Shown here piece by piece: positions 2,285 to 37,887 of a DNA stretch of 64,000 bases (within the stretch, counting starts at the first letter, position 1; each line of letters starts with the position of its first letter). The position numbers and the translations under genes are program-made. This DNA is from Enterococcus florum. GTDB taxonomy: Bacteria; Bacillota; Bacilli; Lactobacillales; Enterococcaceae. The notes under the pieces are model-generated. The model made no database searches, was not told the origin of the DNA, and saw only the letters and a program-made list of their open reading frames with translations. The stretch covers positions 1-64,000 of the forward strand of contig NZ_BJCC01000014.1 in assembly GCF_004309355.1 (NCBI RefSeq), written 5' to 3'.

Positions 2285-3703
2285 CTAAGATTTGACTAAC
2301 AGTAAGAAATCACTCAATGCTTTGCGTATATCCCTCTGAAACATTATAATATATATCACATAGCAGACGGTATATGCTATAAAACTTAATATATCTGTAA
2401 AGAAAACATTTCCCAATATAAACATTAAAGCAAGAACTATTTCAAATGCTTGTTGTACATTCAAATTAATCTTTAAAAAGCCTGCTAATATTTTTTCAGC
2501 TAAAATGCATCTTAAAGCTAAACAAAAAATAATCAATCCGACAGCCAACAAAAGGTTTTGTACTAAGTAAACTATTACAACACCGCCTATTGCAGAAACA
2601 CTAAGTGTCACTACATTAACAAAAAGGATGTATTTCTCTTTACGTAATGTTTTCAGATAAGTGTTGATCAGCAGTGACATCCTTCCCTCAAAAATAATCA
2701 TGGGAAAAAGAATACCCATATACATTAAGCTAACGGAGTATTGGGGAAGCCAAATGACCAATACTTCTTTGATGGGAATATAGAAAAACAGTAAAAAGTA
2801 CGTAAGAGGAACGAATAGGGTCCTTAACACTAAAAAGAGACTCGCAATTCTATCTTTATTTGTTCTTCGTAATAAAGGAAACATCACCACGCCTATTGCA
2901 TTGATAAATGTCAAGAACATATTAGATATGCTTAATGTGAAAGAAAGTTTCCCAAACACCTCTATTGACCATTTATTCTGTACAAAGAAACGAATAATTC
3001 CTAAAATGAGCATGCTGGCAATATTGCTTAGCATTAATTTGCTCCCTATGGAAATATTATCAATAATTTCTTTGATGATTTTATTTAAAGAGATTAGTTT
3101 GATCGTAAGCATATCGCGTATCTGATACATTCCCCAAATAGTCACACAAAGTTTAGAAAAAATATCAATGATAATTAGCCACGAAAAAGTCCTTCCTCCA
3201 AACAAGAAAAAAATCACCAATAAGACAACATATAGGTAACGATCACTTCTTGAAAGATGTGCGTACTCTCTGATACGATTTGTTGATTGTAAGATGTATT
3301 GAATAAAGGTCTTAGCTATTGTTATAAATGAGACACATGCTGTTAAAATCAAAATCAGAGACTTATTCGTATGAGCAACGAAAAAAAGAGTATACATTGT
3401 AATACCCAAGGAAAAACAGACCTCTAGCATTAACAGATACCAATATTGCGAGCCTAAGGAACGCTTATCTAAATCATTGTATTCTTCTCCCCCAATTTTC
3501 AGGTAAATCCCATCTATCCAGCCAAAATGCAAAAATCCGACATAAGAGGAGTAAAATACATATAACTGCCAATAGCTATACTCTTTTACTCCTAATATTT
3601 TCGGAACGAATAGATTAAGAAGCACAGAAATGAGGAGCGTCGCAAAATTCGCCCCCACTGTATAATAGAGGTTTTTAATTACACTTTTAGCTTTATTATT
3701 CAT
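2285..3703 (-). CDS. Wzx-type polysaccharide flippase (second copy)
   Basis: Membrane protein of about 472 residues with roughly a dozen hydrophobic helices, resembling the MOP/PST polysaccharide exporter superfamily. The N-terminus (KNLYYTVGANFATLLISVLL) and the following amphipathic helices are typical of Wzx proteins that move lipid-linked repeat units across the membrane. The ATG at 3703 is preferred over an upstream in-frame TTG because GGAAGGGCGAGG lies just before it. It follows the Wzy/ligase-like gene in the decoration module, which suits export of a lipid-linked decoration unit. The substrate is unknown. Confidence 0.8.
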   Translation of the reverse strand: MNNKAKSVIKNLYYTVGANFATLLISVLLNLFVPKILGVKEYSYWQLYVFYSSYVGFLHFGWIDGIYLKIGGEEYNDLDKRSLGSQYWYLLMLEVCFSLGITMYTLFFVAHTNKSLILILTACVSFITIAKTFIQYILQSTNRIREYAHLSRSDRYLYVVLLVIFFLFGGRTFSWLIIIDIFSKLCVTIWGMYQIRDMLTIKLISLNKIIKEIIDNISIGSKLMLSNIASMLILGIIRFFVQNKWSIEVFGKLSFTLSISNMFLTFINAIGVVMFPLLRRTNKDRIASLFLVLRTLFVPLTYFLLFFYIPIKEVLVIWLPQYSVSLMYMGILFPMIIFEGRMSLLINTYLKTLRKEKYILFVNVVTLSVSAIGGVVIVYLVQNLLLAVGLIIFCLALRCILAEKILAGFLKINLNVQQAFEIVLALMFILGNVFFTDILSFIAYTVCYVIYIIMFQRDIRKALSDFLLLVKS

Positions 3704-3755
3704 GATTCCTCGCCCTTCCTCATTCAAGCCTTCTAATGCTTGAACAAGGGTTCTA

Positions 3756-5132
3756 CTATTTTTTCGTTAATGTATTAGAATTTTGCAGATAACCAGCAAA
3801 AAACCAAAAAATAAATCCAGCCAACCGATTGACGAGCACCATATCCGTAACTAAGCAGGCCGAGATTAATACCGTTATTCCCACAAGACTCAAAAATAGA
3901 TATTGGAAATAGTCATCCGAATGATCTCTAACCAGAAGAAGTCTGCTAAAGATAGTTTTAGCATTTATAATTAAAAAGATGAGAATTGGGATTGTTCCCA
4001 TTATCCCTGTCGTAGCTAACAAATAAAACAAAAAATTATGAGAGGTTTGCTCTTTTACAGCAATATATGTTTTTGGTGTCTGTTCCTGAGCAACTATATA
4101 CAAATTTTTAGGAGAAGTCCCAAAAATCGGATTATTTTCAAAAATTTCTAAAGAACTTTTCCATAATTTAAAACGGCTATTAGAAACATCTGAATTATTG
4201 TCTACATCATTTCTGCTCAATGTTAAACTGTCCGAGAGCTCATTTGAATGCCCACTATTACTTAAATCAATCTTAACGCTATTGGCCGTCCAAACCCATG
4301 CCTGTTTTAATATTTGAAAGCTGCCCAACACTAAAAATACTGCTAAAATTGAAAGAATCAATGCATTAAGGTATTTTTTCACTCTATTGCTTTTTAGTAA
4401 AAAGAAAAAAGTACAAATCAAAACAGCTATAACCAATTGAATTTGTGCAGAACGCGATCCTGACAAAATAATATAACTAAATTGAAAAAAAATATTTGCA
4501 ACGAGAAATGATTTGATTAATTTATTTTTACCAAGCACAGTAAACAAATGAAATGATGATATTATGGTGATCAACGAGATTGTAGATGCATAGTTCGGAT
4601 CCACAAATACGCCATACAATCTATTTTCCACAATACCCAATCGAACGCCATAATAAAGCTTATCAAAAGAGAATGAATTAGAAAACTTAGTGATGAAAAG
4701 AACGACCGCAATCATTACTAGTAGAAACCATACTGCTATCAGCACACTCTCGAATAAGACAAGTAATCTTTTACTCTTTCTCCTACCTAATTCAAACACA
4801 GCAAAAAAGTAAATCCCTTGCCACATTATAAGTTTAAGATTATCAAAAATACCATAACCTCTATTTACAAGCATACTAACAAATAGAACAATCAAAAAAA
4901 TAGACAACAGAATATCAGATAGAAAGAAAGCCTTGTTCTTTATCCGTTCAATAAAAAATTCGGCCATTAAAAATATGGATAAACCAACTAAAGTCCAAGA
5001 AATGAGTGAGTCTAATCTAGGATCGACCAAATAGTAAAGACTGACCATACGAGCAATAAGCACTAGCTCAAATAGTACTATAAAAGGCCCATATAGATAA
5101 AAGTTTATTTTTTTTAATCGTTGATATATCAA
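3756..5132 (-). CDS. O-antigen polymerase/ligase-like membrane protein (Wzy/WaaL type)
   Basis: About 458 residues with ten or more predicted membrane helices and a large soluble loop around residues 270-350. The segment GTSPKN followed by SHNFLFYLLATTGIMG matches the H-N...G-I-x-G pattern near the end of the O-antigen ligase family (PF04932). Such proteins polymerise lipid-linked units or ligate them to an acceptor outside the membrane. The start is TTG, with TAGGAG nine bases upstream. It sits between the epimerase and the flippase in the decoration module. Whether it polymerises or ligates cannot be told from sequence. Confidence 0.75.
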   Translation of the reverse strand: MIYQRLKKINFYLYGPFIVLFELVLIARMVSLYYLVDPRLDSLISWTLVGLSIFLMAEFFIERIKNKAFFLSDILLSIFLIVLFVSMLVNRGYGIFDNLKLIMWQGIYFFAVFELGRRKSKRLLVLFESVLIAVWFLLVMIAVVLFITKFSNSFSFDKLYYGVRLGIVENRLYGVFVDPNYASTISLITIISSFHLFTVLGKNKLIKSFLVANIFFQFSYIILSGSRSAQIQLVIAVLICTFFFLLKSNRVKKYLNALILSILAVFLVLGSFQILKQAWVWTANSVKIDLSNSGHSNELSDSLTLSRNDVDNNSDVSNSRFKLWKSSLEIFENNPIFGTSPKNLYIVAQEQTPKTYIAVKEQTSHNFLFYLLATTGIMGTIPILIFLIINAKTIFSRLLLVRDHSDDYFQYLFLSLVGITVLISACLVTDMVLVNRLAGFIFWFFAGYLQNSNTLTKK

Positions 5133-5152
5133 ATGAACTAACTCCTATTTCA

Positions 5153-6193
5153 TTAATTTTTTTCAATTATTTCTACAGTATGGCTTAAGGCCGTCTCTAA
5201 TTCGAAAATGGGGCTCCATCCTAATTTTCTTATTTTATCAACATCCAAAAGCGCTTTAGTTGCTTTCGAATAACCTTTGATTTCAATTTCGTCCGGCAAA
5301 TCATAGATAATTTCGACTCCAGCTATTTCTGCCAATTTTTGAGCTAAATCCTTAAGTCTCAAATCATAATTAGGATTTCCGATATTATAAGCTTGACCAT
5401 TTTGACCATTGATAAGCAAGAAAATTAAACTAGATACCGCATCACAAACATAGATGTATGAAAATAATTGATTGCCTTCGCTTTTCAGAACGATCGATTC
5501 CTGGTTTGCTGCATTTTTAATAAATTGCGAGGATGCTTTTGAATCGCTCATCCGCATAGTAGGACCAAAGACCCGGGCCAATCTCGGAATAACGATATCC
5601 ATTTTTTTACTTTCAATATAAGCTTGACATAAAGCCTCGCTCACTCTTTTGCTCTCTGAATAACCCGCCCGCAAGGTATTACAATCAATATATCCACAAT
5701 AAGACTCTTTGAAATACTCAACATCACCATTATTTTCACCGTATATTTCTACGGAAGATAAGAAAAGACTTCTCTTTGCATTGATAGATTCAGCATATTT
5801 TAAAACATTTTCCATGCCAAGTATATTTGTCATTATAGTCCCAATAGGATCTGTAGAGTAGGCTTTGGGATGTGTGTTACTAGCAGCATGAATAACATAA
5901 TCGACATTGAGTAAGTTAGGAATAGGATCCGTAATATCTCCCCTGATCAAGGTTAAATCATCATTATTTGAATAATGTTCAAATCTCATTTTTAAATTTT
6001 CTTCGTTCCTACCCATAGCATATATTTTAATGTTAGCATTCTCATTTTTATTTCTCGTCATTAGAACGTCAATCAAGCAAGTTCCCAACATACCAGAAGC
6101 ACCAACGACTAAGATCGAATGATTGTCGATTCTCTCCCAATCATATTCTAAATCAGCAACTCTTTCGATATCCTCAATGTATAAATTGTTCAT
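5153..6193 (-). CDS. NAD-dependent epimerase/dehydratase (extended SDR)
   Basis: Rossmann-fold extended SDR of about 346 residues. The nucleotide-binding motif is GASGMLG near the N-terminus, the catalytic pair is YSESK (Y-x3-K), and RVFGPTMR and a C-terminal SDR helix follow. The family acts on nucleotide-activated sugars (epimerases, 4,6-dehydratases, decarboxylases). It lies four bases or so from the cytidylyltransferase gene and shares its unit, so a CDP-linked substrate is possible. The ATG at 6193 is chosen because GAGAGGTGG lies seven bases upstream; a GTG three codons earlier overlaps that site. It is not a TarJ-type alcohol dehydrogenase. The exact reaction is unknown. Confidence 0.75.
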   Translation of the reverse strand: MNNLYIEDIERVADLEYDWERIDNHSILVVGASGMLGTCLIDVLMTRNKNENANIKIYAMGRNEENLKMRFEHYSNNDDLTLIRGDITDPIPNLLNVDYVIHAASNTHPKAYSTDPIGTIMTNILGMENVLKYAESINAKRSLFLSSVEIYGENNGDVEYFKESYCGYIDCNTLRAGYSESKRVSEALCQAYIESKKMDIVIPRLARVFGPTMRMSDSKASSQFIKNAANQESIVLKSEGNQLFSYIYVCDAVSSLIFLLINGQNGQAYNIGNPNYDLRLKDLAQKLAEIAGVEIIYDLPDEIEIKGYSKATKALLDVDKIRKLGWSPIFELETALSHTVEIIEKN

Positions 6194-6205
6194 TAGTGCC
6201 ACCTC

Positions 6206-6907
6206 TCAATATTTCATTTTTAAATATGCTTTAAAAAGCTCTAGATCATCAACAGTTGTCAACTTAATGTTTTTTTCAGATCCTACTGAAAAGTACAATG
6301 TTTCTCCTAAATCCACCATCATCGTATTTGTATAAGAAGAATCAGTCATACCAATATTCTCTTCAACAGCTTTATTATACCCCCACAATAATTTTCCGAA
6401 CTTATATGCCTGTGGTGTGGAAACCCTTCTTAGCGTATTACGGTCAACATATTTCCTCGTCTTCTCTTCTGTCTCCTTGATAAAGATTTGTTCATTGTAA
6501 GGTAAAGATGTAACCCCGTTCCCAAATTGTTTACATTTTACAATGACATCAGACAAAACCAACTCATCGACTAAAGGACGTATCCCATCATGGATAACAA
6601 CAATATCTTCATCCGAGCAAAATTCCTTCAAGAATTGAACACCATTATTAATCGATTCTTGACCTTTATTCCCACCAGGAATAATCCAACGAACTTTATT
6701 GATCTTAAATTCTTTGATATATGCCCAAAGCGTCTCTTCCCATCCAAACTTGCAGACAACTAATATCTGATCGATCTCTGGATGGTTTTGAAAAGATTCC
6801 AACGTATAGATAATAATGGGTTTGCCTTCAACAGTAATAAACTGTTTAGGTATATCTTGCCCCATTCGCTTTCCAACTCCGCCGGCAATAATTACTGCTG
6901 TTATCAT
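6206..6907 (-). CDS. IspD/TarI-like cytidylyltransferase
   Basis: About 233 residues of the IspD/TarI family, which transfers CMP to a polyol phosphate (methylerythritol-4-phosphate in IspD, ribitol-5-phosphate in TarI). The motifs seen are AGGVGKRMG followed by IPKQF, HDGIRPLV, RRVSTPQAY and KLTTVDDLEL. A location inside a wall-polysaccharide cluster with a LicD-type transferase argues for a decoration precursor such as CDP-ribitol rather than isoprenoid synthesis. It is coupled to the next SDR gene. No TarJ-like reductase is seen in the window, so the polyol is undetermined. Confidence 0.8.
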   Translation of the reverse strand: MITAVIIAGGVGKRMGQDIPKQFITVEGKPIIIYTLESFQNHPEIDQILVVCKFGWEETLWAYIKEFKINKVRWIIPGGNKGQESINNGVQFLKEFCSDEDIVVIHDGIRPLVDELVLSDVIVKCKQFGNGVTSLPYNEQIFIKETEEKTRKYVDRNTLRRVSTPQAYKFGKLLWGYNKAVEENIGMTDSSYTNTMMVDLGETLYFSVGSEKNIKLTTVDDLELFKAYLKMKY

Positions 6908-6922
6908 AGAATCTCACCCTTT

Positions 6923-7882
6923 TTATTTATTTTTAATTAAAAACCACAAATCAGCCAATATCGGATGTAAACTGGTATATTTACTGATATTGGTGAATAC
7001 CAAATAAATTTTTCTCTTTTCCATTATAGAACTTCTTATTTCATACTCTCTTATAAGCTTATGAAGGATTTGTGCCCGATCTTTTTTTTGAGGTATTGAT
7101 GCTGAACTATGCTCCAGATAATGTATACTTGAAATCGTTATTTCTTTAAGTCTTTCCAATTTCCTTATCCTTATACCGAATAGTCCCTTTTTAGTTTCAT
7201 CTTTTTTTTCAGTGCGCATTGCACTTTGTCCGTGCTTTCGCCATTGTCCCGTAGGTTCCCTCAAAATAAATAAACTATCTGTTAATACTCCTACTGACCA
7301 CATCGCACTATCATGAACTGGAACTACGCCAAAATCGAAGAATATCTTAACTTCTTTTAAAAAACTCTTTCTGACTGCATAGACCCACCCAGGTCGGTTC
7401 AAATAAATATTTTTTAAAGTAAACGGAATTCTACCTTCTTGCGTCACCTTTTCAATTACTCGCTGACTACAAGGATAAGATACTCCACCAAATTCTATTA
7501 ACTCGTCATAGTTCGATACTAAAACGTTCGCAGTAGAATGACTCAAAAAAAAATCCACCATCTTATTTATCTTGTCAAGATACCAAATGTCATCTTGGTC
7601 AGATGGAAAAACAATATCACCAGAGGCTTTGTTAAGTAAACAAAAGAAATTCAAACGCCATCCAAGATTTTTTTTGTTCTCCTCCACTTGCCAATTAGTT
7701 AGATTATATTTTTTTATATATTCCTTAACCATAGAAACCGTGTTGTCCGTTGAACGATCATCTAATATGATAACTTCTTCAACAGGATAGGTCTGTTGGC
7801 GAATAGAATCCAGCTGCTCTAGAATGTTTTTTTCTCCATTATAAGTGGGCATGATGACCGAAACCGAGGGTCTTAGATTCAT
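6923..7882 (-). CDS. GT2 glycosyltransferase, rhamnosyltransferase-like
   Basis: Family 2 glycosyltransferase of about 319 residues. The N-terminus VSVIMPTYNGEKNI is the nucleotide-binding start, LDDRSTDNT is the donor loop, and DQDDIW is the metal-binding DxD region typical of wall rhamnosyltransferases. There are no membrane helices, so it acts on the cytoplasmic face. It is followed by the cytidylyltransferase unit and preceded by LicD, so it probably helps assemble the decoration. The ribosome binding site is TTGGAG about ten bases before the ATG. Confidence 0.8.
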   Translation of the reverse strand: MNLRPSVSVIMPTYNGEKNILEQLDSIRQQTYPVEEVIILDDRSTDNTVSMVKEYIKKYNLTNWQVEENKKNLGWRLNFFCLLNKASGDIVFPSDQDDIWYLDKINKMVDFFLSHSTANVLVSNYDELIEFGGVSYPCSQRVIEKVTQEGRIPFTLKNIYLNRPGWVYAVRKSFLKEVKIFFDFGVVPVHDSAMWSVGVLTDSLFILREPTGQWRKHGQSAMRTEKKDETKKGLFGIRIRKLERLKEITISSIHYLEHSSASIPQKKDRAQILHKLIREYEIRSSIMEKRKIYLVFTNISKYTSLHPILADLWFLIKNK

Positions 7883-7915
7883 GATATAAATACTCCAATC
7901 ATAGATAATTCAATC

Positions 7916-8722
7916 CTATTTTCTAAGAATTTTATAATGAGCAGGGATTCTATCTTTCTCTGGTGGCAATTGCATGTAGTCTCCATACAAGTTTCCTAAA
8001 TATTCTTCATAACCAATCGGAATGGTGGCAATTTCTTTTTCAAAAGAGACTTCCACTGCCTGTGAAAAGGCTTTTGCAGATAAAAATTCCTTAGTTCCAT
8101 GCGTGGAAACCACTGCTACTCCCATCGTATTTGACTGCTGATTCTCTTGATTGATCTTTAGCGCCAGTCGATTTATCTTTCTAGCAAAATAATTTGGTCC
8201 TAATACATTTGCATAAGGTTTGATCAAGTTTTTGATCACTCGATGCTTTTCAGAGGGCCGAAAAGCTTTTTTTGTACCCGATCCTCTCAAAAAGTCTAAA
8301 CGCCTTATCTTTTTGCAAATTTCATTTTGACGTTCAGGGTCATCTGGAAGATTGTCTATCGGAAAAATATCAATAAAAAGACCGTGCTGAACATCCCTAT
8401 ACTCATCATCAATATATGTGGATATTAAGTCTATCTTAGCAAATGGATACTGCCAATCACTCACCGTTTCCAAACTGCTCAACCGATACTTCCCATCAAG
8501 TTGCTCGCGATTTTCAATCAATTTAACATAATCTTCTCGTAACATCATAATATCTAAATCATCATCCCAAGGAATAAAACCTTGGTGACGGATTGCTCCT
8601 AGTAATGAGCCGCCGGAAAGAAAATACTTGATATCTAATTGGTTGCATAGTTTATGAAAATCTTGCAACATCCCTAATAGTTCCTGATGAATTTCATCTA
8701 AAGTCATGTATTCCTGATTCAA
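7916..8722 (-). CDS. LicD-family phosphotransferase
   Basis: About 268 residues with the LicD signature: SGGSLLGAIRHQGFIPWDDD near residues 37-56, then LDIMM and DIFPIDNLPDD. LicD proteins move a phospho-substituent (phosphocholine, or polyol phosphate in relatives) from a CDP-linked donor onto a glycan. The CDP donor could come from the cytidylyltransferase encoded about 1 kb downstream in the same unit. The start is TTG, with TAGGAG nine bases upstream. No choline kinase or choline cytidylyltransferase pair was seen, so phosphocholine is less likely than a polyol phosphate. Confidence 0.85.
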   Translation of the reverse strand: MNQEYMTLDEIHQELLGMLQDFHKLCNQLDIKYFLSGGSLLGAIRHQGFIPWDDDLDIMMLREDYVKLIENREQLDGKYRLSSLETVSDWQYPFAKIDLISTYIDDEYRDVQHGLFIDIFPIDNLPDDPERQNEICKKIRRLDFLRGSGTKKAFRPSEKHRVIKNLIKPYANVLGPNYFARKINRLALKINQENQQSNTMGVAVVSTHGTKEFLSAKAFSQAVEVSFEKEIATIPIGYEEYLGNLYGDYMQLPPEKDRIPAHYKILRK

Positions 8723-8734
8723 CGAGTAACACTC

Positions 8735-9823
8735 CTATACTTTTTTTCTATATATTTTTTCCATTTGATTTAGCGTATAGCTCACATCATATTTTTCTAA
8801 TAAAGGCGTATAATCGTTGTCGTAAGGTTCTTCCAGAATTCCTTTTACCCATTCTGAAATCGGAGCGGCTAGGTTAATATAGACACAGTTAGGTGTAACT
8901 GCCGTATCTCTAGAAATGCGATCAGACATGACTAGCTTTTTCTTGGCTGCTTGTGCCTCTAAACCAACCATTGGTAACCCTTCATAAATTGAGGACAAAA
9001 CAAAAACGTCAAACACACTCATCAATTCGGGAATGTCCCTTCTCTCACCCAAAAATAAGACATCCGAATCTAAACCTAGTACTCTTACCTGCTCCTTCAA
9101 ATCGTTTTCTAGTGAGCCGCTGCCAACAATGACTAACTTGCTTCGTTTTTTGATTTTTTTTATTTCATAAAAAACATTGATTAGATAAAGTTGGTTTTTT
9201 TGTTTTTCCAACCTGCCAATATTTCCGATAACAAATGTTTCCTTTTCGATTCCTAATTCATCTCTTTTAAGTTCTCTTGTCTTCTTTGGATGATCGTACA
9301 AGGAAAGATCTATCCCGTTATGAACAATCTGAAAAGGATGATTCCCAAAAAGACTGATTCCGGCTTCTTCACTTACAGCTAAAAAATCTGTCCCATTGTT
9401 TAGCAAAAGCTTCGCCAAAAAGAATCGTAGAATAGATACCAAAAATCCTTGACCTTTCCCGTCCTCTGTGGCATGACTATGTGCGATTCTTTTACCTATT
9501 CCGTTTCTTTTAGAAAGCCACAAATTAATACCGCCACCAAAGTAGACCTGATTGTGCACGATATCAAAATGCTCTTTTTTTAACAGCATACGAACTTCAT
9601 GAAGATACTTAAAAATATTTTTTTTCGGATTTGTTACTACAAAAAAACGCCCACCTAGTTTCAGTACTTCATCCTGATAGTCAGTTACGTCCTGATAGTC
9701 GTCATATATTAAGAAATCAAATTGGAACTCTTCTTTGTCCAACTTGCGATAAAGATTCATCATAAATGATTCGGCACCTCCAAGACCCATTCTGCCTTGA
9801 AAATGCAATATTCTTTTTACCAT
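8735..9823 (-). CDS. GT4 glycosyltransferase
   Basis: GT-B fold glycosyltransferase of about 362 residues, similar to EpsF/CapH-type wall and capsule enzymes. The N-terminal acceptor half starts RILHFQGRMGLGGAESFM, with the G-G-A-E pattern of the family. The donor half shows GNIGRLEKQKN, then SSIYEGLPMVGLEAQ with the E-x7-E pair. No membrane segments are seen. It lies twelve bases before licD in the unit. Donor and acceptor cannot be read from sequence. Confidence 0.82.
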   Translation of the reverse strand: MVKRILHFQGRMGLGGAESFMMNLYRKLDKEEFQFDFLIYDDYQDVTDYQDEVLKLGGRFFVVTNPKKNIFKYLHEVRMLLKKEHFDIVHNQVYFGGGINLWLSKRNGIGKRIAHSHATEDGKGQGFLVSILRFFLAKLLLNNGTDFLAVSEEAGISLFGNHPFQIVHNGIDLSLYDHPKKTRELKRDELGIEKETFVIGNIGRLEKQKNQLYLINVFYEIKKIKKRSKLVIVGSGSLENDLKEQVRVLGLDSDVLFLGERRDIPELMSVFDVFVLSSIYEGLPMVGLEAQAAKKKLVMSDRISRDTAVTPNCVYINLAAPISEWVKGILEEPYDNDYTPLLEKYDVSYTLNQMEKIYRKKV

Positions 9824-9846
9824 GTAAACCTCCAGAACGTTAAAAA

Positions 9847-10884: not shown

Positions 10885-10896
10885 AATGCACCTCTA

Positions 10897-12285: not shown

Positions 12286-12431
12286 ATTTCCTCCTACTTT
12301 CAAAAATAATCCATCTAACATATTAACATAGTCAATCTTAAAAAAGTAGATTATTGCTGAAATGTTAAAGAAAACAAAGAAGTTCGATTCTGTCCTGCTT
12401 ATAGATTTGAATACATCTGTTAAAATGAAAC

Positions 12432-12450
12432 ATTATGTTTTTTACATAAT
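12432..12450. repeat. 7-bp palindrome upstream of the epaR unit
   Basis: ATTATGT (12432-12438) and ACATAAT (12444-12450) are perfect inverted arms separated by five T. It abuts the terminator of the upstream flippase and lies about 150 bases ahead of the epaR start, in the only space available for that unit's promoter. It could be an operator; the A/T-rich context weakens the case. Confidence 0.35.
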
Positions 12451-12451
12451 A

Positions 12452-12481
12452 AAAAGGATGGGAACTTGCTCCCATCCTTTT
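12452..12481 (-). terminator. Terminator between flippase and epaR
   Basis: AAAAGGATGGGA pairs with TCCCATCCTTTT (12 bp, 6-base loop). On the minus strand TTTTTATT follows. It starts a few bases after the flippase stop, ending the third module of the locus. The T-rich flank on the plus side makes it symmetric. Confidence 0.88.
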
Positions 12482-12484
12482 AGT

Positions 12485-13747: not shown

Positions 13748-13840
13748 TCTTTCTCCCAATTCATAATGTAATTTTCATTATCAATAGATAATATTCATTC
13801 GACAGTTCATACACTTTTTAACTATAAAGAGAGTTAATAA

Positions 13841-16968: not shown

Positions 16969-16996
16969 AAAAAGGGTGAGAAATGAATCCCACCCT
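16969..16996 (-). terminator. Terminator after the second GtrII gene
   Basis: AGGGTG pairs with CACCCT (6 bp, plus two more pairs after one mismatch); on the minus strand TTTTTG follows. It lies about 65 bases beyond the stop of the membrane glycosyltransferase at 17061. Confidence 0.8.
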
Positions 16997-19919: not shown

Positions 19920-19946
19920 TTCTTTCACTCCTAGGTAAATAGATTG

Positions 19947-28028: not shown

Positions 28029-28070
28029 AAATCCTCCTTTAAAAATCATTTGTGCATTCAAAGCTAGAAA

Positions 28071-29615: not shown

Positions 29616-29690
29616 TTTTTTACCCCGTTCGTTTAGAGTGAGATAGGATTTGTCATAACGCCTCTACTTCTTTTGTCGTATTGCAAAAAA

Positions 29691-30842
29691 TTAGTCATAT
29701 TCGCCAAAGCCCAACCATAAGAAAATGGTCATTATTGGTACCCAAGCACCAATAAACAAGCTCTCTTCCATCATGGAATATATCAAAACCATAAAAAGGC
29801 CAAATAAACTACTGACCTGTAATTTTGTAAGATAATAAGGCGTATTAACAAATTTAATGATCTGGATGGATAGTGGAACAAAAACGAACACATACCCAAT
29901 AATTCCATAATGAGATAGCAAGTATAAAAAACCATTATGAGGGCCTAGATTCTTAGCTGAATATAAGTAATCCCCCATTCCCAGCTGAATATAAACTGGA
30001 TCACTTAACCACTTTTCAAAGATATATTTCCAAATATTCTCTCTTCCAGTAAATAAATCAACCGATGTATTTACAGCTAGATAATAAATGAGAAATGGTG
30101 CTAGGCAAAAAAATAAGATAAACGACATGATCCATTTTTGGTTTCTTTCAAAAAATTTTTTAACGAATAAATTATCTACAATAATAAAACCTAGCAGGAC
30201 AATTAACGAAGTTCTAGATTGGCATATCCAAGCTCCAGCTAAACCGAGCAAATAAAATAGTACAACGAAAACATTGGCAACTCCATTCTCTAAAGATTTC
30301 AAGATAATCGTTGAAGTCATAGTAGCGAACAATATTCCGCCACCGATTGCATTGACATTGAGCCATAGTGTAGACAAAGAATTACTATTTTGTAAAATTT
30401 GTTCCCAGGTAAGTACTTTGGGTATTTCGACAAATAGTCTAACGGAAATCGCACACAGAAAAAAAGAAACGATGCCTAAGATTATCAATCTGTCAATTTC
30501 ATCAAGTGGATATAACCGATAGCCAACAAGTAATAAAAGAAACACCGATACAATGAGATTGCCTTCAATAGAGGCGCTGTTTCGCAGATCCTGATTAATA
30601 GTGAAAAAGACAATTGAAAAGATCGCTAAGCCGACCAAAATCCAATCAGCAACTTGTATCCTCTTAAAATTTAGAACAACTAGAGCAATCAGTAAAATAA
30701 ATAGTATTGTTCCAGTATTCCCTAATAAAAAAAGAGTAAAACTATTTTCAATACCAAAAAGCCATATCATATACGACCCAATAATCGGCAACATTAATAA
30801 CATACGCTGCAATCGATTTGCCATATTTTCCATTATGTACAT
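29691..30842 (-). CDS. O-antigen polymerase/ligase-like membrane protein
   Basis: About 383 residues with ten or more membrane helices, resembling the O-antigen ligase family. The late motif GPHNGFLYLLSHYGIIGYVF fits the family pattern (H-N-x-L-x3-x-G-I-x-G). The ATG at 30842 follows AAAAGGG and avoids a long overlap with the preceding gene; an ATG nine bases later is also possible. It may polymerise or ligate glycan outside the membrane, and is the first of two such proteins in the locus. Confidence 0.72.
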   Translation of the reverse strand: MYIMENMANRLQRMLLMLPIIGSYMIWLFGIENSFTLFLLGNTGTILFILLIALVVLNFKRIQVADWILVGLAIFSIVFFTINQDLRNSASIEGNLIVSVFLLLLVGYRLYPLDEIDRLIILGIVSFFLCAISVRLFVEIPKVLTWEQILQNSNSLSTLWLNVNAIGGGILFATMTSTIILKSLENGVANVFVVLFYLLGLAGAWICQSRTSLIVLLGFIIVDNLFVKKFFERNQKWIMSFILFFCLAPFLIYYLAVNTSVDLFTGRENIWKYIFEKWLSDPVYIQLGMGDYLYSAKNLGPHNGFLYLLSHYGIIGYVFVFVPLSIQIIKFVNTPYYLTKLQVSSLFGLFMVLIYSMMEESLFIGAWVPIMTIFLWLGFGEYD

Positions 30843-30855
30843 CCTAACCCTTTTC

Positions 30856-31662
30856 TCAAAATTCTTGCCAAGTAATTCTAGCAAAATTAAACTTACCGGT
30901 AATTATTTGTTTTATACATCTTAAGAGCAATTGTTTACGGTATCTTCCCTTTAAATGCTGTGCGTAAGTGAAATAAAATTTCTTTTCAGCTTTTATAATA
31001 CTTGTGTATCGCTTCTCATTTAACGAACTTAAATCCAATACAGAAAGTTGATGAAATAATTTCACCTTTAAAATTTGAAGGTTCTGCTTCTCTTCAAACA
31101 TTCGCCAACAAAACCAATGATCTAAATAGTCTAGAGGAAATTCTTCGTTGTATCCTTCAATACTATCGAGATAACGCTTTGACACGGCCAACCCAGAATT
31201 GATAACCATAATATTCTCACGGTAGCAGGTATCTGCTTGAGGTAAATTTCCATGTAATGGTCTGACAGTATTTGAAAAAACAGGTGATATTTGTTTCTCT
31301 CTGTCACAAACCACTGGTGCTGCTGCTGCACAATTTTCAGGTATGTTCTTAATTTCTTGGCTCAACTCTCTAAAATACTCTATGGTTAAAACTGTATCCT
31401 GATCTAGTGTGATCAACCATTGCGCACTCATGCTTCTCCAAGCGAAATTATAGGCCTTCGCTAACCCGACATTCTCATCACTATGATAGTAAACAAATCT
31501 ATGATCCAACTGAGTCAAAGGAACAGCCGTTTCACTATTATCGAACACCAAAATTCGGCTGATTTCGGGAATTGAAGCTTTCGCGAGAAGCTCACTCAAA
31601 CTTCTGATCGTCGGCGATTCTTTATAAGTCATTCCGTATAAAACAATCACAATATCAAACAA
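30856..31662 (-). CDS. GT2 rhamnosyltransferase-like protein
   Basis: About 268 residues. FDIVIVLYG opens the fold, ILVFDNSETAVP replaces the usual D-G-S loop, ENVGLAKAYNFAW is typical of rhamnosyltransferases of the RfbF/WbbL group, and LDQDTVL is the DxD motif. GGGAG lies eight bases before a TTG at 31662, the chosen start; a TTG five codons earlier overlaps that site. It follows rmlD directly, so dTDP-rhamnose is a likely donor. Confidence 0.8.
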   Translation of the reverse strand: MFDIVIVLYGMTYKESPTIRSLSELLAKASIPEISRILVFDNSETAVPLTQLDHRFVYYHSDENVGLAKAYNFAWRSMSAQWLITLDQDTVLTIEYFRELSQEIKNIPENCAAAAPVVCDREKQISPVFSNTVRPLHGNLPQADTCYRENIMVINSGLAVSKRYLDSIEGYNEEFPLDYLDHWFCWRMFEEKQNLQILKVKLFHQLSVLDLSSLNEKRYTSIIKAEKKFYFTYAQHLKGRYRKQLLLRCIKQIITGKFNFARITWQEF

Positions 31663-31683
31663 GCTTCTCACTCCCAAAAACGA

Positions 31684-32529
31684 TTATTTTTTCTCAATTG
31701 CTAAAAATGACTCTAGTGCTTCTTCCCAAGTTGGAATCTCAAACCCCAATGCCTTGGTTTTGCTTAAATCCATCACAGAATACTGTGGCCGTTTTGCCTT
31801 TTGAGGATATTCTTCTGAGGTGACTGGCAATACCTCTACATCTGAATCTTTCAAAATTTCTTTTGCAAACTCGTACCAAGTACAGCTGTTTTCATTCGAT
31901 AGATGATAAATTCCAAAAGGAGCTTCGTTTTCAATGACGAATGTCATAAATTCTGCGAGAGTTCTCGTCCATGTGGGACGACCAAATTGATCATTGACCA
32001 CGGTCAACTGTTTGTGCGTCTCTGCCAATCGCTGCATCGTGTAAACAAAATTGTGTCCATATATCCCAAAAACCCATGAAGTTCGGATAATGTAATACTT
32101 ATCTTCCATGACTTCTTGTACAGCTTGTTCACCTAACAACTTTGTACGGCCGTATTCACTTTGAGGATTCGTCGAGTCATCCACTTGGTACATTCCCTCT
32201 TTTTTGGTCCCATCGAAAACATAATCCGTACTGATATATACCAAAACAGCCCCTACACTCTTAGCTGCCAAAGCAACATTTCTGGTGCCTTCAACGTTGA
32301 TTTTTTCATCGAGTTCTTTTCCCTCATCTTCTGCCTTGTCTACAGCAGTATAAGCTGCACAATGATAGATCAACTCTGGTTTCAGCTCAGAAATATAGGC
32401 CATTGTTCCTTCCGCATCTGTGATGTCCAGCACGTCAGCATCTGTTGACACATAATCGATATTCTTTTCATCTAGTAAATTTCTTAACTCTGTTCCTAAT
32501 TGTCCATTTCCGCCTGTAAGCAAAATCAT
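31684..32529 (-). CDS. rmlD: dTDP-4-dehydrorhamnose reductase
   Basis: Last step of dTDP-L-rhamnose synthesis. About 281 residues with GGNGQLGTEL at the N-terminus, STDYVFDG, catalytic YGRTK, and RTSWVFG, all RmlD hallmarks. The ATG at 32529 has AAAGGAGAG just before it; the upstream frame extension lies in a terminator and is not coding. It is separated from rmlB by that terminator, so its supply may be lower or conditional compared with rmlA-rmlC-rmlB. Confidence 0.95.
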   Translation of the reverse strand: MILLTGGNGQLGTELRNLLDEKNIDYVSTDADVLDITDAEGTMAYISELKPELIYHCAAYTAVDKAEDEGKELDEKINVEGTRNVALAAKSVGAVLVYISTDYVFDGTKKEGMYQVDDSTNPQSEYGRTKLLGEQAVQEVMEDKYYIIRTSWVFGIYGHNFVYTMQRLAETHKQLTVVNDQFGRPTWTRTLAEFMTFVIENEAPFGIYHLSNENSCTWYEFAKEILKDSDVEVLPVTSEEYPQKAKRPQYSVMDLSKTKALGFEIPTWEEALESFLAIEKK

Positions 32530-32569
32530 ACGACTCTCTCCTTTAGTCTTGAGTTTGAAATGCTCTCCC

Positions 32570-32593
32570 AAAAAAAGGCAGGTCACCCTGCCT
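32570..32593 (-). terminator. Intrinsic terminator between rmlB and rmlD
   Basis: AGGCAGG (32576-32582) pairs with CCTGCCT (32587-32593), loop of four. On the minus strand seven T follow. It lies in a 69-base gap, six bases after the rmlB stop. It is a strong-looking terminator in the middle of the rhamnose pathway genes, with no obvious promoter after it, so partial read-through is likely. Confidence 0.85.
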
Positions 32594-32598
32594 GAAAT

Positions 32599-33627
<1,029 letters not shown>

Positions 33628-33663
33628 CTACTTTGCTCCTTGTTCGTCTCAACTAATTTTTGT

Positions 33664-34245
33664 TTATTTTTTTCCATAAACGAACGGATTTTCCGCTTCA
33701 AATTCTTTTAAAGTCGGATGCTTTTGATCCTTCTCAGAAGTAATAGCCTTATCGATCGCGATAGGCCACTCAATCGCCAAATCCGGATCATCAAACGCAA
33801 TCCCGCCATCCGCTTGGGCATCATAGTAATTATCGCATTTATACATGAAGTTCACATTGGGTGTCAAGGTCATAAAACCATGTGCATACCCGCGCGGCAC
33901 TAACAGTTGACGGTGGTTGGAGTCAGAAAGGATATACCCCTCCCATTGACCGTAAGTAGGACTTCCTTTGCGAATATCTACGATCACATCAAGAACGGCT
34001 CCTGTCACTACTCTGATCAATTTTGTTTGGGCCGAATCCCCTTTTTGAAAATGCAATCCTCGTAAAACACCTGGTTGAGTCGAAAGTGAATGATTGTCTT
34101 GAATAAAGTCAAAATCGATGCCGGCCTCTTTGAAATCCTTTTGTGAATAGCTTTCAGTAAAGAATCCTCGATGATCTCCAAACACTGCCGCCTCGATAAT
34201 CTTTACATCTGTCAATTTGGTTTCTTTTACCACTAATTTGCCCAT
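33664..34245 (-). CDS. rmlC: dTDP-4-dehydrorhamnose 3,5-epimerase
   Basis: Third step of dTDP-rhamnose synthesis. About 193 residues, cupin fold, with FGDHRGFFTESY, QDNHSLS, GVLRGLHFQKG (catalytic His) and VPRGYAHGF. The start is the ATG at 34245, which shares its A with the rmlA stop (TAATG), so translation is coupled. An upstream frame extension overlaps rmlA and is not used. Confidence 0.95.
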   Translation of the reverse strand: MGKLVVKETKLTDVKIIEAAVFGDHRGFFTESYSQKDFKEAGIDFDFIQDNHSLSTQPGVLRGLHFQKGDSAQTKLIRVVTGAVLDVIVDIRKGSPTYGQWEGYILSDSNHRQLLVPRGYAHGFMTLTPNVNFMYKCDNYYDAQADGGIAFDDPDLAIEWPIAIDKAITSEKDQKHPTLKEFEAENPFVYGKK

Positions 34246-35120
34246 TACATTTCCTCTTTTGCTAAGCGTAATAAATATTGTCCATATTGGTTCTTTTTCA
34301 GTGGCTGTGCCAATTTTTTCAGTTGTTCCCTGGTGATATAGCCCATCCGATACGAAATCTCTTCTAGACAAGCAACCTTCAGATTTTGACGTTTCTCGAT
34401 CGTGGAAATAAAGGTGGAAGCTTCCAGCAGTGATTCATGCGTCCCGGTGTCTAACCAAGCAAACCCTCGGCTCATCACCTCTACAGATAATTTGTTGCGG
34501 GTTAAATACTCTTTATTCACGTCCGTGATCTCAAGTTCTCCGCGCTCAGAAGGCTGAATGTTTTTCGCGATCTCCACAACATCATTGTCATAAAAATAGA
34601 GGCCAGTGACTGCGTAATTTGACTTTGGCTCTTCTGGCTTTTCTTCGATTGATACCGCCTGCATCGCTTCATTGAATTCAACGACACCAAATCGTTCCGG
34701 ATCATTGACGTGATACCCGAAAACAGTCGCTCCTTCTGTTTTACCAGCTGCACGCTGCAGCATTCTAGATAAACCATCCCCGTAGTAAATGTTATCTCCC
34801 AACACTAAGCAGACACTATCTTCACCAATGAATTCCTCACCGATGATAAAAGCTTGCGCCAAGCCGTCCGGACTCTCTTGAACTGCATATTCGATATGAA
34901 TACCCAAATCACTGCCGTCTCCGAACAAATCCTCAAATCGCGGAGTGTCCTGCGGAGTTGAAATAATCAAAATTTCTTTGATTCCAGCCAGCATCAATGT
35001 TGACATTGGATAATAAATCATTGGTTTATCATAAACAGGCATCAGTTGTTTTGATGTTGCTTTTGTTAATGGGTAGAGGCGAGTACCGCTGCCTCCTGCT
35101 AAAATAATTCCCTTCATCAT
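34245..35120 (-). CDS. rmlA: Glucose-1-phosphate thymidylyltransferase
   Basis: First step of dTDP-rhamnose synthesis, making dTDP-glucose. 291 residues, with [62 protein letters not shown] and LDTGTHESL. These are the RmlA signatures. GAGGAG precedes the ATG pair. It is the first of the four rml genes and lies behind a candidate promoter. Confidence 0.96.
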
Positions 35121-35155
35121 TTACGCTCCTCACTTTTACAATACATACGGTTTTT

Positions 35156-35161
35156 ATTATA
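35156..35161 (-). promoter_or_regulatory. Candidate -10 box of an rml promoter
   Basis: The 69-base gap before rmlA holds a perfect TATAAT on the minus strand, preceded by TG. The -35 region is poor. Transcription from it would give a leader of about 30 bases. The evidence is the -10 box only. Confidence 0.4.
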
Positions 35162-35189
35162 CATGATAGGGTTCCAAGAGAGAATGAAA

Positions 35190-35933
35190 TTAAGATTTTT
35201 TTTGAACTTCCTTTAGTCTTCGTCGAACCAATCGCCAAGCATTCCAACGCCATTTTACCTGTTGCATAAACGATGCCGTTGTATTGATCTCCGTAGCATT
35301 CAACCCGTGTCGACGATAATAGACCAGTTTTTCAGGAATGAACATGACACCTTTGTTTTCATCGGCTAAAAGACCGATCCACATATCATGCATCGGCACG
35401 TCATCAGGAATTGGCAAAATTAATTTCTTAAGATCGCTGCGAAAAGCCATTCCAGCACCAATATAGCTGCTGCGCAACAAATTTTGCCAAAAACCAGTTT
35501 TAGTTTTTCGCATCTCTTGGTATGAAGAAATCAGAATCTTAAAATCATTATCAACAATGATCAGATCTGACACTACTACGGTTGCCTCAGGATTTTTTTC
35601 AAAATAGTGAATCATCACGTCTATTTTATTCTCTTTCCAAACATCGTCCTGATCACTAAAAAAAATCACAGCATTTTGACAATGTCTCATGGCATTTTCA
35701 AAATTGCTGATGACCCCTTTTCCTTGGTTGCGGTACAGTTTGATCCGTTGGTCTTGCATCTGTCGGTTTTTCAACAACTCCCACGTACCGTCCGTAGAAG
35801 CATCATCTGAAACAACTAACTCATCTTCATTATTCAATTGAGGAAGGATACTATTTAATTGTTCTTCGATAAAAGCGGCCCCGTTATACGTCGCCATACA
35901 AATCGATACAGACAACGATCTCTGCCTTTCCAT
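35190..35933 (-). CDS. GT2 rhamnosyltransferase-like protein, EpaC/EpaD position
   Basis: 247 residues with VSICMATYNGAAFIEEQL, VSDDASTDGT and FFSDQDDVW, the pattern of wall-rhamnan glycosyltransferases. It lies between EpaB and rmlA, as epaC or epaD do in E. faecalis. AGGAGG precedes the ATG. No membrane helices are seen. It probably adds an early sugar to the lipid-linked primer. Confidence 0.83.
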   Translation of the reverse strand: MERQRSLSVSICMATYNGAAFIEEQLNSILPQLNNEDELVVSDDASTDGTWELLKNRQMQDQRIKLYRNQGKGVISNFENAMRHCQNAVIFFSDQDDVWKENKIDVMIHYFEKNPEATVVVSDLIIVDNDFKILISSYQEMRKTKTGFWQNLLRSSYIGAGMAFRSDLKKLILPIPDDVPMHDMWIGLLADENKGVMFIPEKLVYYRRHGLNATEINTTASFMQQVKWRWNAWRLVRRRLKEVQKKS

Positions 35934-35943
35934 TCAATCCCTC

Positions 35944-36741
35944 CTAAAAAAACTGCCAGCCCCACTTATTGAAGTATTTCGCCATGGACTGCAGAAAAAT
36001 CAGAAAAAGCTTCTTGCTTTTCACTGCCCCACGCTCGTATAAATGGACAACCTCGTAACGAGGAGTGTACAAAGCTTTATATCCAGCCGCTTCAATTTTT
36101 CGACAGAGGTCATTATCCTCAAAATACATGAAGAATCGTTCATCGAAGCCGTCAACTTCAGAGAACCTCGCCAAGTCAACCACCATGAAACTACCTGAAA
36201 TCATCCGCACATAGCTGTCTTTGGTATCAGACAACCCTCGACATTCAAACTGGGATAATCTCTTTTTAAACAGCCGCTTGACTGGTTTGAATGGTATGAA
36301 TCGTAATATATAGTCAAAAACATCCAATTTGTTACGGATCAAATATTGTGTCGTTCCGTCTTCATTTAGGATTTTAGGCGCTAAAAGCGCACAATCCGGA
36401 TGCTCTTTTAACAACCCAACCAAACCCATTATGAGATTCTGCTCTAAAATAATATCAGGATTAAAAATAATGGCATACGGTGTCGGTTTTGGTAGCAAGT
36501 TATAATTATGCCCAAAACCAAAGCCTTTATTTTCTTCAAAAAAAGTAATCTGGATAAATGGAAAATTCAAATAATACCTGAGCTTATCCTGGTAGTCCTT
36601 TTCTGAAGCATTGTCGAAAATCCGGATGCTTACTGTTGATGTTTCGCCAAGTGATTTGATCAGTGCATCCAAGCTCAAAAAAATTTTTTCGCTGTTATGA
36701 GTGACGATACTAATCGTTACTTCTTTTGCTTGTTTTTCCAT
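35944..36741 (-). CDS. epaB: EpaB-like GT2 rhamnosyltransferase
   Basis: 265 residues. ISIVTHNSEKIFLSLDAL is the GT2 start, FDNASEKDY the donor loop, NKGFGFGHNYNLL the rhamnosyltransferase motif and FNPDII the DxD equivalent. FMYFEDNDLCRKIEAAGYK completes the catalytic core. It follows epaA and should add the first rhamnose to the GlcNAc-lipid. The name is by type and order in the locus. Confidence 0.87.
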   Translation of the reverse strand: MEKQAKEVTISIVTHNSEKIFLSLDALIKSLGETSTVSIRIFDNASEKDYQDKLRYYLNFPFIQITFFEENKGFGFGHNYNLLPKPTPYAIIFNPDIILEQNLIMGLVGLLKEHPDCALLAPKILNEDGTTQYLIRNKLDVFDYILRFIPFKPVKRLFKKRLSQFECRGLSDTKDSYVRMISGSFMVVDLARFSEVDGFDERFFMYFEDNDLCRKIEAAGYKALYTPRYEVVHLYERGAVKSKKLFLIFLQSMAKYFNKWGWQFF

Positions 36742-36756
36742 AAAAGTGATAAGCTC

Positions 36757-37887
36757 TCATTTCTTAAAATATTTCTTCAATACTTGTCCACGATACTCTC
36801 TATTCCCAAAAAAGCGGAAAGTCTTCGTAATAAACTTGTATTTTTCACTGATTAATCCAATTAGTTCCAACAAGAAAGTCAAGGCAAAGCCCATCGTAAG
36901 AACTAAGACAACGGTCCCGATCCGACTCGTGTAATTGATCAAGAGTGCTGTAAAAGAAAATAAAACCGCAATTGCGTAAATCGTTAGGACGGCGCCGCGA
37001 TGTGTAAATCCCAAATTTAGCAGCCGATGATGGAGATGCTGTTTATCTGCTGCGGAAATCGGCATATTTTTGGACTTTCTGCGAACCATCGCAAAAAAAG
37101 TATCTGTCACTGGAACACCTAGAATGATCAAAGGTGTGACCAGCGTGATAAAAGTAACGTTCTTCAATCCTTGCAATGAAAGAACGGCAATCATAAAGCC
37201 CAAAAACAAAGCACCCGTATCGCCTAAGTAGATTTTCGCAGGATGAAAGTTATAAGGAAAAAAACCCATAATGCTGGTTACCAAACAAAAAATAGCTAAT
37301 GAAATGTACGTTGTCGAAGAATGCAAGAAAAAATAACCGATGACACCGATCGTCGTTAAGCCAATGATCGAAACTCCAGAGGCCAAGCCATCCAGTCCAT
37401 CAATTAAATTCACTGCATTAGTAATGCCAAAAATCCAAAAAATAGTGGCCGGCAAGCTCCACCACCCTAAATGAATCAATCCCACTACAGGCAGTGTAAG
37501 GACATCGAAACGAACATTGTCAGCAAAAAAATAAATGATCAACGCCGCAATCAGTATTCCTAAACTTTTCTGTCTTGGATTCAACTCAAACTTATCATCC
37601 AACACACCGGTGACCACAATCACACAGCCACCAGCTAAAATCGGCAGTATGTAGCTTTGAGGAATCACGTGCCTGAAAAGAAACAAAGAAGAGATCGCAA
37701 ACGTGATAAAAATTGGCAATCCACCTGCACTGGGCATCGGAACCTCATTGATTCGTCGTGCATTGGGTTTGTCTACTAACCCTGTCTGAACGGAAATAAT
37801 TTTAAAAATTGGCGTTAAAATCAACGCCAATACAATTGTTAAAAAATACCTAATAATCAATCCCAATGAGATTAACACGTGTGCCAC
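36757..37887 (-). CDS. epaA: Undecaprenyl-phosphate GlcNAc-1-phosphate transferase (EpaA)
   Basis: 376 residues, eleven predicted membrane helices, of the WecA/TagO/MraY family. The motifs are GVLDDKFELNPRQK, NAVNLIDGLDGLA, IYLGDTGALFLGF, DTFFAMVRR and KQHLHHRLLNLG. It starts the polymer by placing GlcNAc-1-phosphate on undecaprenyl phosphate at the inner face. The start is GTG; a second GTG three codons in is also possible. A good promoter lies 20-50 bases upstream, so this opens the polysaccharide locus. Confidence 0.93.
   Translation of the reverse strand: MAHVLISLGLIIRYFLTIVLALILTPIFKIISVQTGLVDKPNARRINEVPMPSAGGLPIFITFAISSLFLFRHVIPQSYILPILAGGCVIVVTGVLDDKFELNPRQKSLGILIAALIIYFFADNVRFDVLTLPVVGLIHLGWWSLPATIFWIFGITNAVNLIDGLDGLASGVSIIGLTTIGVIGYFFLHSSTTYISLAIFCLVTSIMGFFPYNFHPAKIYLGDTGALFLGFMIAVLSLQGLKNVTFITLVTPLIILGVPVTDTFFAMVRRKSKNMPISAADKQHLHHRLLNLGFTHRGAVLTIYAIAVLFSFTALLINYTSRIGTVVLVLTMGFALTFLLELIGLISEKYKFITKTFRFFGNREYRGQVLKKYFKK

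Follow-up and report, generated by a model that had tools for sequence, protein, structure and literature searches.

The 64,000-nucleotide stretch of the Enterococcus florum genome analysed here (assembly GCF_004309355.1, contig NZ_BJCC01000014.1, positions 1 to 64,000; hereafter the window) carries on its minus strand a locus for the enterococcal polysaccharide antigen (EPA), which runs from the gene for EpaA (37887) to that for the flippase candidate WZX2 (2285) with its open reading frames (ORFs) intact. We consider it likely that this locus is a chimera, in which an ordinary EPA frame holds a rhamnan core of the Rgp type together with a side-chain unit of the GacI/GacJ/GacK type, and within this reading the Rgp-type core would stand in place of the usual EpaP-EpaL-EpaM-EpaN genes. 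In sequence the core resembles those found in streptococci and in a minority of enterococci; the parts are of known kinds, and their combination was not found elsewhere among the genomes searched. Two kinds of decoration are probably added to the wall sugar, and the locus would have two flippases because two chemically different lipid-linked routes, one on undecaprenyl phosphate (Und-P) and one on undecaprenyl diphosphate (Und-PP), meet in it. An earlier note on the window had reported two complete flippase/ligase sets beside an EpaL/EpaM exporter. The oddity it pointed to is real, but it stems from a core of another type that brings a GacK-like flippase unit, and not from a second Wzx/ligase set.

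The permease of the ATP-binding cassette (ABC) exporter shares no more than 26-29% identity with canonical EpaL, whereas it is 70-81% identical to the RgpC-type permease of 12 other Enterococcaceae, including E. nangangensis, E. caccae, E. quebecensis, E. rivorum, E. casseliflavus, E. gallinarum, E. italicus, E. diestrammenae, E. asini and strains CU9D and DIV0212c, and 51-60% identical to that of a genus (g19) which we take to be Streptococcus. In the permease tree the window lies inside the enterococcal Rgp clade (SH-aLRT 99). Canonical EpaL has no match in the source genome at an E-value of 1e-30. Of its 19 congeners 18 do have a match, 17 of them at 63-100% identity and G013 at 47%, the exception being a genome that is 74% complete. 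Judged by these comparisons, the ABC pair is not orthologous to EpaL/EpaM, as the earlier note had named it, and is of the RgpC/RgpD type. The protein combining glycosyltransferase (GT) domains of families GT2 and GT4 with an RgpF domain is 56% identical to its counterparts in both Rgp-type enterococci and streptococci over 99% of its length, and the neighbouring GT4 enzyme (18669..19928) is 53-56% identical to those of Rgp-type loci and at best 26% identical, over 36%, to anything in canonical loci. The two features that define an Rgp-type core, an RgpC/RgpD-type exporter and an RgpF-domain protein, are thus present together. Rgp-type exporters were found in 13 Enterococcaceae genomes, the window's included, across seven genera (for example in E. 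casseliflavus and E. gallinarum), and because they are scattered in this way over the family they suggest that backbone types have been repeatedly exchanged or lost.

The gene relationships along the locus are those of a mosaic. The segments from EpaA to RmlD and from EpaR to the Wzy and Wzx genes resemble ordinary epa loci, and the ~15-19 kb between the rhamnose genes and epaR form an Rgp-type core without EpaP. The genes at 31684..36741 have their best identity to the own genus (70-94%) and the gene order of the congeners, and from 28061 down to 12485 most genes are closest to counterparts in loci of Rgp type or of streptococci (permease 80%, ATPase 74%, RgpF-like protein 56%, GT4 56%, DUF2142 protein 53%, second GtrII-type protein 50%). 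Exceptions to this pattern are the epimerase, which is 64% identical to those of ordinary epa loci, and the GT2 at 15899 and the flippase WZX1, which are about equally near to the genomes G017 and G092; further up, the TIGR03766 protein at 28071 has no close match. EpaR and the variable genes match ordinary epa loci, with matches in Rgp-type loci weak or absent, and in the EpaR tree the window falls within a clade of its own genus and one other, g3 (SH-aLRT 100). The G+C content is 0.39-0.42 across EpaA to RmlD and 0.31-0.37 from there down to ~1.5 kb. Membership in the epa family is evident from the 5' EpaA-type initiator, EpaB/C and rmlABCD, from EpaR followed by a variable Wzx/Wzy region (the Wzx on indirect grounds) and from EpaQ; the canonical EpaL permease and an EpaP-like GT-C in the core are lacking. 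No match to the EpaP-like GT-C was obtained among the ORFs of the locus at an E-value of 10, in a search confined to the locus, and this protein is present in 22 of 22 other complete EpaR loci, where the name EpaP is presumed on gene order rather than on a profile search. The joints of the inserted segment were examined for repeats, and none was convincing. That the exporter and most of the core are, on sequence relationship, of Rgp type within an epa frame had escaped the earlier note.

To judge how unusual the locus is, 45 locus assemblies were read, the window's included, of which 23 were at least 35 kb long and contained EpaR. Eleven were excluded as shorter than 35 kb, being cut by contig ends or by the chosen stretch (G007, G008, G011, G013, G014, G016 and G017 with two pieces each, G018 and G033), and eleven others lacked EpaR at the threshold applied (G036, G041, G043, G049, G051, G056, G061, G069, G071, G092 and G099). 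In addition, 105 genomes of the host family, Enterococcaceae, which includes named Enterococcus species, were searched with single genes, part of them being read gene by gene. With the same profiles, each of the 22 other complete EpaR loci shows one flippase, downstream of EpaR, and the window alone shows two (1 of 23). EpaQ and a variable-region polymerase occur together in 17 of these 22 loci (13 with a polymerase of the WZY2 family and 4 with a polytopic protein of ~353 amino acids that we take to be EpsG-like on gene order rather than on a profile search), so that paired Wzy/ligase-like proteins are common, and the elaborateness that the earlier note thought unusual among epa loci lies in the second flippase. 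The RgpC-type exporter is found in 13 and EpaR (E 1e-100) in 44 of the 105 genomes, and the two coincide in the window's genome only, where 5.4 genomes would be expected if they were independent (hypergeometric P 0.006), a census that is a pattern and not a test because kinship is ignored. Among 65 loci found through the permease (stretches of 7.6-20.8 kb, a few from distant relatives) no EpaR, WZY2 or WZX2 homologue was labelled, and among the open-access papers listed none was seen to describe this hybrid or an enterococcal epa locus with an exporter of the Rgp type.

The additional flippase, WZX1, has a predicted model (pLDDT 86.7) with the MOP/Wzx-MATE fold, which matches structures of WzxE (9g9o_A, TM-score 0.72), MurJ and MATE proteins over almost its full length. 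Searches by sequence with the WZX1, WZX2 and EpaQ profiles found no solved relatives, a PHROGs search gave nothing useful, and a GtrA-type flippase had one match in the same genome, on another contig. WZX1 occurs in 4 of the 105 family genomes (the window's, G092, G058 and G017), of which G092 and G058 also have the RgpC-type exporter. Across 395 genomes of the order it is matched at E 1e-20 in 32, the window's counted, and 28 of these belong to genus g19 (genomes of 1.5-2.3 Mb); 11 named Streptococcus loci from a separate search also carry it. From the 32 genomes 30 loci were retrieved, and with neighbours counted within ~1.5 kb, WZX1 stands beside a DPM-like GT2 and a DUF2304 protein in 20 of the 29 others (21 of 30 with the window). 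Within the genus, 3 of 20 genomes, that of the window among them, encode the DUF2304 protein, and a DUF2142 homologue adjoins the WZX1 homologue in loci L100, L201 and L215. Structures matched by the GacI-like GT2 include ArnC and DPMS, and in the DPM tree this synthase groups with those of S. phocae (55% identity), S. uberis and five other streptococci (SH-aLRT 100), apart from EpaI and other enterococcal synthases. A DPM-like synthase, a DUF2304 partner and a MOP flippase are adjacent, as in a four-component system, and the locus offers four GT-C candidates (DUF2142, two GtrII and TIGR03766). On these relationships WZX1 most likely serves an Und-P-sugar side-chain system of the GacI/J/K/L type, not a second Wzx/ligase set with EpaQ. 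In the congener G017, contig C33 (~16.8-23.7 kb; L033/L034) carries a unit of GtrII, a large polytopic protein, DPM, DUF2304, GT2 and WZX1; no rml, EpaQ or EpaR gene was seen on this contig, and an ordinary EPA core lies on another.

In Streptococcus pyogenes GlcNAc-P-C55 is the product of GacI and GacJ, with GacK as its presumed flippase and the GT-C GacL as its presumed transferase, and WpsA, WpsB, WpsG and WpsJ are the lactococcal counterpart with elongation, both being described as four-component systems in passages of PMC10821137 and PMC8035078. The window has the same trio of synthase, DUF2304 protein and MOP flippase, with GT-C candidates, the likeness being one of family and order, but here the unit adjoins a complete EpaR/Wzx/Wzy route. 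A variant of the same explanation, compatible with it, is that WZX1 flips an Und-P-oligosaccharide, as WpsG or ScbF would, rather than a monosaccharide in the manner of GacK, the GT2 at 15899 and others lengthening the sugar before flipping. This is a tangible possibility, though short of an even one: the GT2 and the epimerase lie between two hairpins with the synthase and WZX1, the same GT2 family adjoins WZX1 in several loci, and the homologous GlcNAc-P-C55 is elongated in Lactococcus (passages of PMC10821137), but in the tree the nearest companions of the synthase are the S. phocae and S. uberis enzymes and not the lactococcal ones, on a branch that is long (1.52).

The decoration region downstream of EpaR follows the ordinary epa pattern. 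Its polymerase, WZY2, is 29-41% identical to 13 variable-region homologues, and its flippase candidate, WZX2, belongs to a family in which none of 7 members has a Pfam match and which has no sequence match in the PDB. A crude count gives WZX2 ~11 hydrophobic segments. The 22 other complete loci contain either a WZX2 homologue (6) or one other flippase-like protein (16), never both, and all 10 of the 16 that were run against Pfam match PF01943, one of them below the cut-off. Because of this mutual exclusion we accept WZX2 as the decoration flippase, on indirect evidence, and the converse assignment, with WZX1 as the decoration flippase and WZX2 as no flippase, is disfavoured by it. Of the two flippases claimed by the earlier note, WZX1 thus stands by PF01943 and its fold, and WZX2 by position, hydrophobic segments and mutual exclusion only. 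A profile-profile comparison of the two families (E 0.015, probability 2.9%) did not show homology. The members of the WZX2 family, all without a Pfam match, are the window's protein (2285-3727) and those of L040, L042, L046, L054, L066 and L068, from three genera. A hairpin with a T-rich tail precedes epaR in 10 of 24 other EpaR loci examined (11 of 25 with the window), so that the one in the window is not special to it; terminator-like hairpins in the region number 7 against a shuffled mean of 8.5, a total not above chance.

EpaQ was one of the two polymerase/ligase-like proteins of the earlier note. The Wzy_C profile supports WZY2 in this role, and EpaQ, which belongs to a family of its own, scores 18.9 bits with that profile, under its cut-off of 31.7; the EpaQ and WZY2 profiles match weakly (E 0.00084, probability 24%). 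Conserved in 15 homologues are an R, a GRE-IW-like motif and an HN. EpaQ is present in 46 of the 105 family genomes, 40 of which have EpaR, and 40 of the 44 EpaR genomes have EpaQ, the other 4 being without it by profile. The EpaQ of the window is equidistant (36-37%) from those of ordinary epa and Rgp-type loci; its predicted model (pLDDT 54, from three sequences) was left out of the fold search. In the Rgp-type loci L152 and L154 (E. diestrammenae and Enterococcus sp. CU9D) EpaQ lies upstream of EpaB; these genomes have no EpaR at E 1e-100, and EpaQ may have a different use there or be a remnant. GlcNAc transfer is assigned to EpaP or EpaQ in part of a review (PMC8327497), and a published model expects LCP enzymes to link the decoration to the rhamnan (passages of PMC7188991). 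The absence of EpaP from the locus, alongside the retention of EpaQ, mildly favours a part for EpaQ in the decoration route.

Taken together, the gene content would allow the following scheme. EpaA would make GlcNAc-PP-Und, as its family suggests, and EpaB, EpaC and the RgpF-like protein would assemble the rhamnan from dTDP-rhamnose for export by the RgpC/RgpD-type ABC pair. The GacI-like synthase and its DUF2304 partner would load one sugar onto Und-P, which the neighbouring GT2 may extend; WZX1 would flip the Und-P-sugar, and a GT-C of the locus (of the DUF2142 or GtrII type) would add the sugar to the rhamnan outside, with no polymerase involved. In the other route EpaR would put a sugar phosphate on Und-P, the GT, LicD and cytidylyltransferase genes would build a teichoic-acid-like repeat, WZX2 would flip and WZY2 polymerize it, and the product would be joined to the rhamnan outside, perhaps by EpaQ. 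An ABC-exported rhamnan with at least two lipid-linked decoration routes, as the earlier note proposed, is borne out to this extent, against one flippase each in the 22 other loci.

The same two routes could feed two separate wall polymers in place of one doubly decorated rhamnan, and nothing in the sequence fixes the acceptor. We regard this as unlikely, given a single rhamnan-type exporter (one RgpC-type match and no canonical EpaL) and, in the genome, one EpaA at high identity, accompanied by a TagO-type relative at 34%. Less likely still is a pairing of WZX1 with EpaQ and of WZX2 with WZY2 as two complete flippase/ligase sets, each for a polymer of its own: both flippase candidates and both Wzy-like proteins are present, and WZX1 and EpaQ share one half of the locus, but EpaQ is found in 46 of the 105 genomes and WZX1 in 4, and EpaQ was labelled in two enterococcal and no streptococcal permease-found loci. 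EpaQ follows EpaR (40 of 44) and WZX1 follows the GacI-like synthase and DUF2304 (20 of 29); with EpaQ and a variable polymerase paired so commonly, the two-set explanation was set aside. That the hybrid is an assembly artefact is most improbable, since, although it comes from a single draft genome (3.99 Mb in 73 contigs, 99% complete, contamination 1.89%; the locus on its contig C14), its ORFs are intact throughout the locus, an artefact would take two independent joints that both happened to fall between genes, and the remainder of the genome has no canonical EpaL.

Several points weigh against the chimera with two decoration routes that we prefer. The hybrid rests on one draft assembly, and the absence of EpaP refers to the locus. 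The profiles used to count flippases were built from hand-picked proteins, so that a flippase of another family could escape them, and several loci contain additional unlabelled polytopic proteins. The window is a long branch in both the DPM tree (1.52), for which treekit warned of long branches meeting, and the EpaR tree (0.48). Nine of the 29 other WZX1 loci are without DPM and DUF2304 inside ~1.5 kb, and four GT-C candidates compete as the partner of WZX1. G017 also has two flippases, though in separate loci, and because it pairs the WZX1 unit with an ordinary core, this unit can travel apart from an Rgp core. The identity of WZX2 as a flippase is indirect, and EpaQ need not always go with the EpaR route, since 6 of the 105 genomes, two of which are of Rgp type, have EpaQ and no EpaR. 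Gene content, gene relationships and the predicted fold of WZX1 are observed; the chemistry is what we infer from them.

The features of the locus are listed in Table 1. The genes named in the earlier note are at the places it gave, as intact ORFs, with both the EpaA-type and the EpaR-type initiator among them, though the ends it gave at 13747, 3703 and 30842 are internal ATG starts. EpaC matches PF00535, and EpaB had no Pfam match at E 1e-5.

Table 1. Features of the E. florum epa locus, in order from the EpaA end (positions in the window).
Feature	Position	Strand	Evidence
EpaA-type initiator (TagO/WecA family), rhamnan	36757..37887	-	PF00953, 136 bits; 80-86% to 18 congeners
EpaB- and EpaC-like genes, rmlA, rmlC, rmlB, rmlD (dTDP-rhamnose); native EPA frame	31684..36741	-	Names from order and homology
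GT2 after rmlD, last gene of native 5' frame	30856..31677	-	PF00535; 53% to congener over 99%; position as in congeners
EpaQ family protein (Wzy/WaaL-like, polytopic), candidate decoration ligase	29691..30884	-	NF037933, 294.9 bits (cut-off 100)
GT-C-type membrane GT (TIGR03766/PMT_2)	28071..29615	-	PF13231, 27.7 bits; TIGR03766, 319 bits, below cut-off 500
GtrII-type membrane GT 1	26484..28061	-	PF14264, 117.9 bits
RgpC-type ABC permease (rhamnan exporter)	25445..26242	-	PF01061; identity; tree
RgpD-type ABC ATPase	24239..25444	-	PF00005; 74% to E. casseliflavus, 66% to Streptococcus, each over 99%
GT2-RgpF-GT4 three-domain rhamnan synthase	21226..24210	-	PF05045 (RgpF), 183.5 bits; GT2 and group-1 GT domains
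DUF2142 membrane protein, putative side-chain GT-C transferase	19947..21239	-	PF09913
GT4 of Rgp core	18669..19928	-	PF00534
GtrII-type membrane GT 2, candidate side-chain transferase	17061..18524	-	PF14264, 156 bits; 50% to E. rivorum locus
Terminator-like hairpin ahead of side-chain unit	16973..16996	-	9-pair stem, T tail, intergenic
GT2 of side-chain unit	15899..16675	-	PF00535; 51-52% to Rgp-type loci, streptococci and G017
GalE-like NAD epimerase, nucleotide-sugar supply	14918..15886	-	PF01370; TIGR01179, 186 bits, below cut-off 262
GacI-like GT2 (polyprenyl-phosphate sugar synthase, DPM-like)	14194..14925	-	PF00535
GacJ/WpsB-like DUF2304 partner	13841..14197	-	PF10066, 100 bits
WZX1, MOP-fold flippase of GacK type	12485..13759	-	PF01943 (Polysacc_synt), 35.8 bits, over cut-off; fold
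Terminator-like hairpin between WZX1 and epaR	12452..12481	-	13-pair stem
EpaR, polyprenyl-phosphate glycosylphosphotransferase, start of decoration unit	10897..12321	-	TIGR03025, 369 bits; 69-74% to 16 congeners
Variable decoration genes: GT2, GT4, LicD, GT2, IspD-like cytidylyltransferase, SDR epimerase	5153..10884	-	Nearest relatives in ordinary epa loci
WZY2, Wzy_C polymerase of decoration	3756..5132	-	PF04932 (Wzy_C), 72.7 bits, over cut-off
WZX2, decoration flippase candidate	2285..3727	-	63-65% to 6 variable-region homologues
GH25 hydrolase with ChW repeats, downstream end of region	267..2156	-	PF01183, 145.6 bits; PF07538, six stretches

With the epa loci of E. faecalis V583 and the E. 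faecium types, as far as described in passages of PMC7188991, the window shares EpaA, EpaB/C-like genes, rml, EpaQ and EpaR, the variable LicD, cytidylyltransferase, Wzy and Wzx decoration genes and a GH25 gene (EF2174 in the variable region of V583), and differs from them in the absence of EpaP from the locus, the replacement of canonical EpaL and the extra flippase unit; in the V583 model the decoration region contains a single Wzx (EF2166) and a single Wzy (EF2169). Variation in EPA is usually placed downstream of epaR, with an 18-gene conserved core in E. faecalis (PMC8428557), although published work already records that the core differs between E. faecalis and E. faecium and also in E. 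cecorum. With the Rgp-type loci of E. caccae, E. quebecensis, E. casseliflavus, E. gallinarum, E. italicus, E. nangangensis and others the window has in common the RgpC/D-type exporter, the GT2-RgpF-GT4 protein and GT4 (in most of them) and DUF2142, GT2, DPM and DUF2304 (in several), whereas EpaR was not found in their genomes at E 1e-100, and the stretches read from them contain neither a Wzy2 nor a Wzx2 homologue. The bipartite rgp loci of S. thermophilus similarly have an Rgp backbone, a side chain initiated by WpsA/WpsB, a Wzx-like flippase and DUF2142; for the UCCSt50 locus no Wzy-like polymerase is reported in the passages of PMC9746298 cited here, whereas the window has the EpaR/Wzy route as well.

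A replaced core with a retained decoration route would amount to a natural swap experiment, which bears on the question of which enzyme links the decoration to the rhamnan. A tentative extension, possible rather than likely, is that the EPA core is an exchangeable cassette, in which the module for backbone, export and side chain has been replaced and the decoration route kept, yielding one rhamnan with two separately made sets of substituents; EpaQ would then be the best candidate for the as yet unproven decoration ligase, because it is the sole core membrane enzyme of EPA type that has been retained. If so, joining the Wzy-made chain would need neither the native EPA backbone machinery nor EpaP. 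The locus also bears on how a second decoration route can be added to an enterococcal wall polysaccharide, which matters for phage receptors and for immune recognition.

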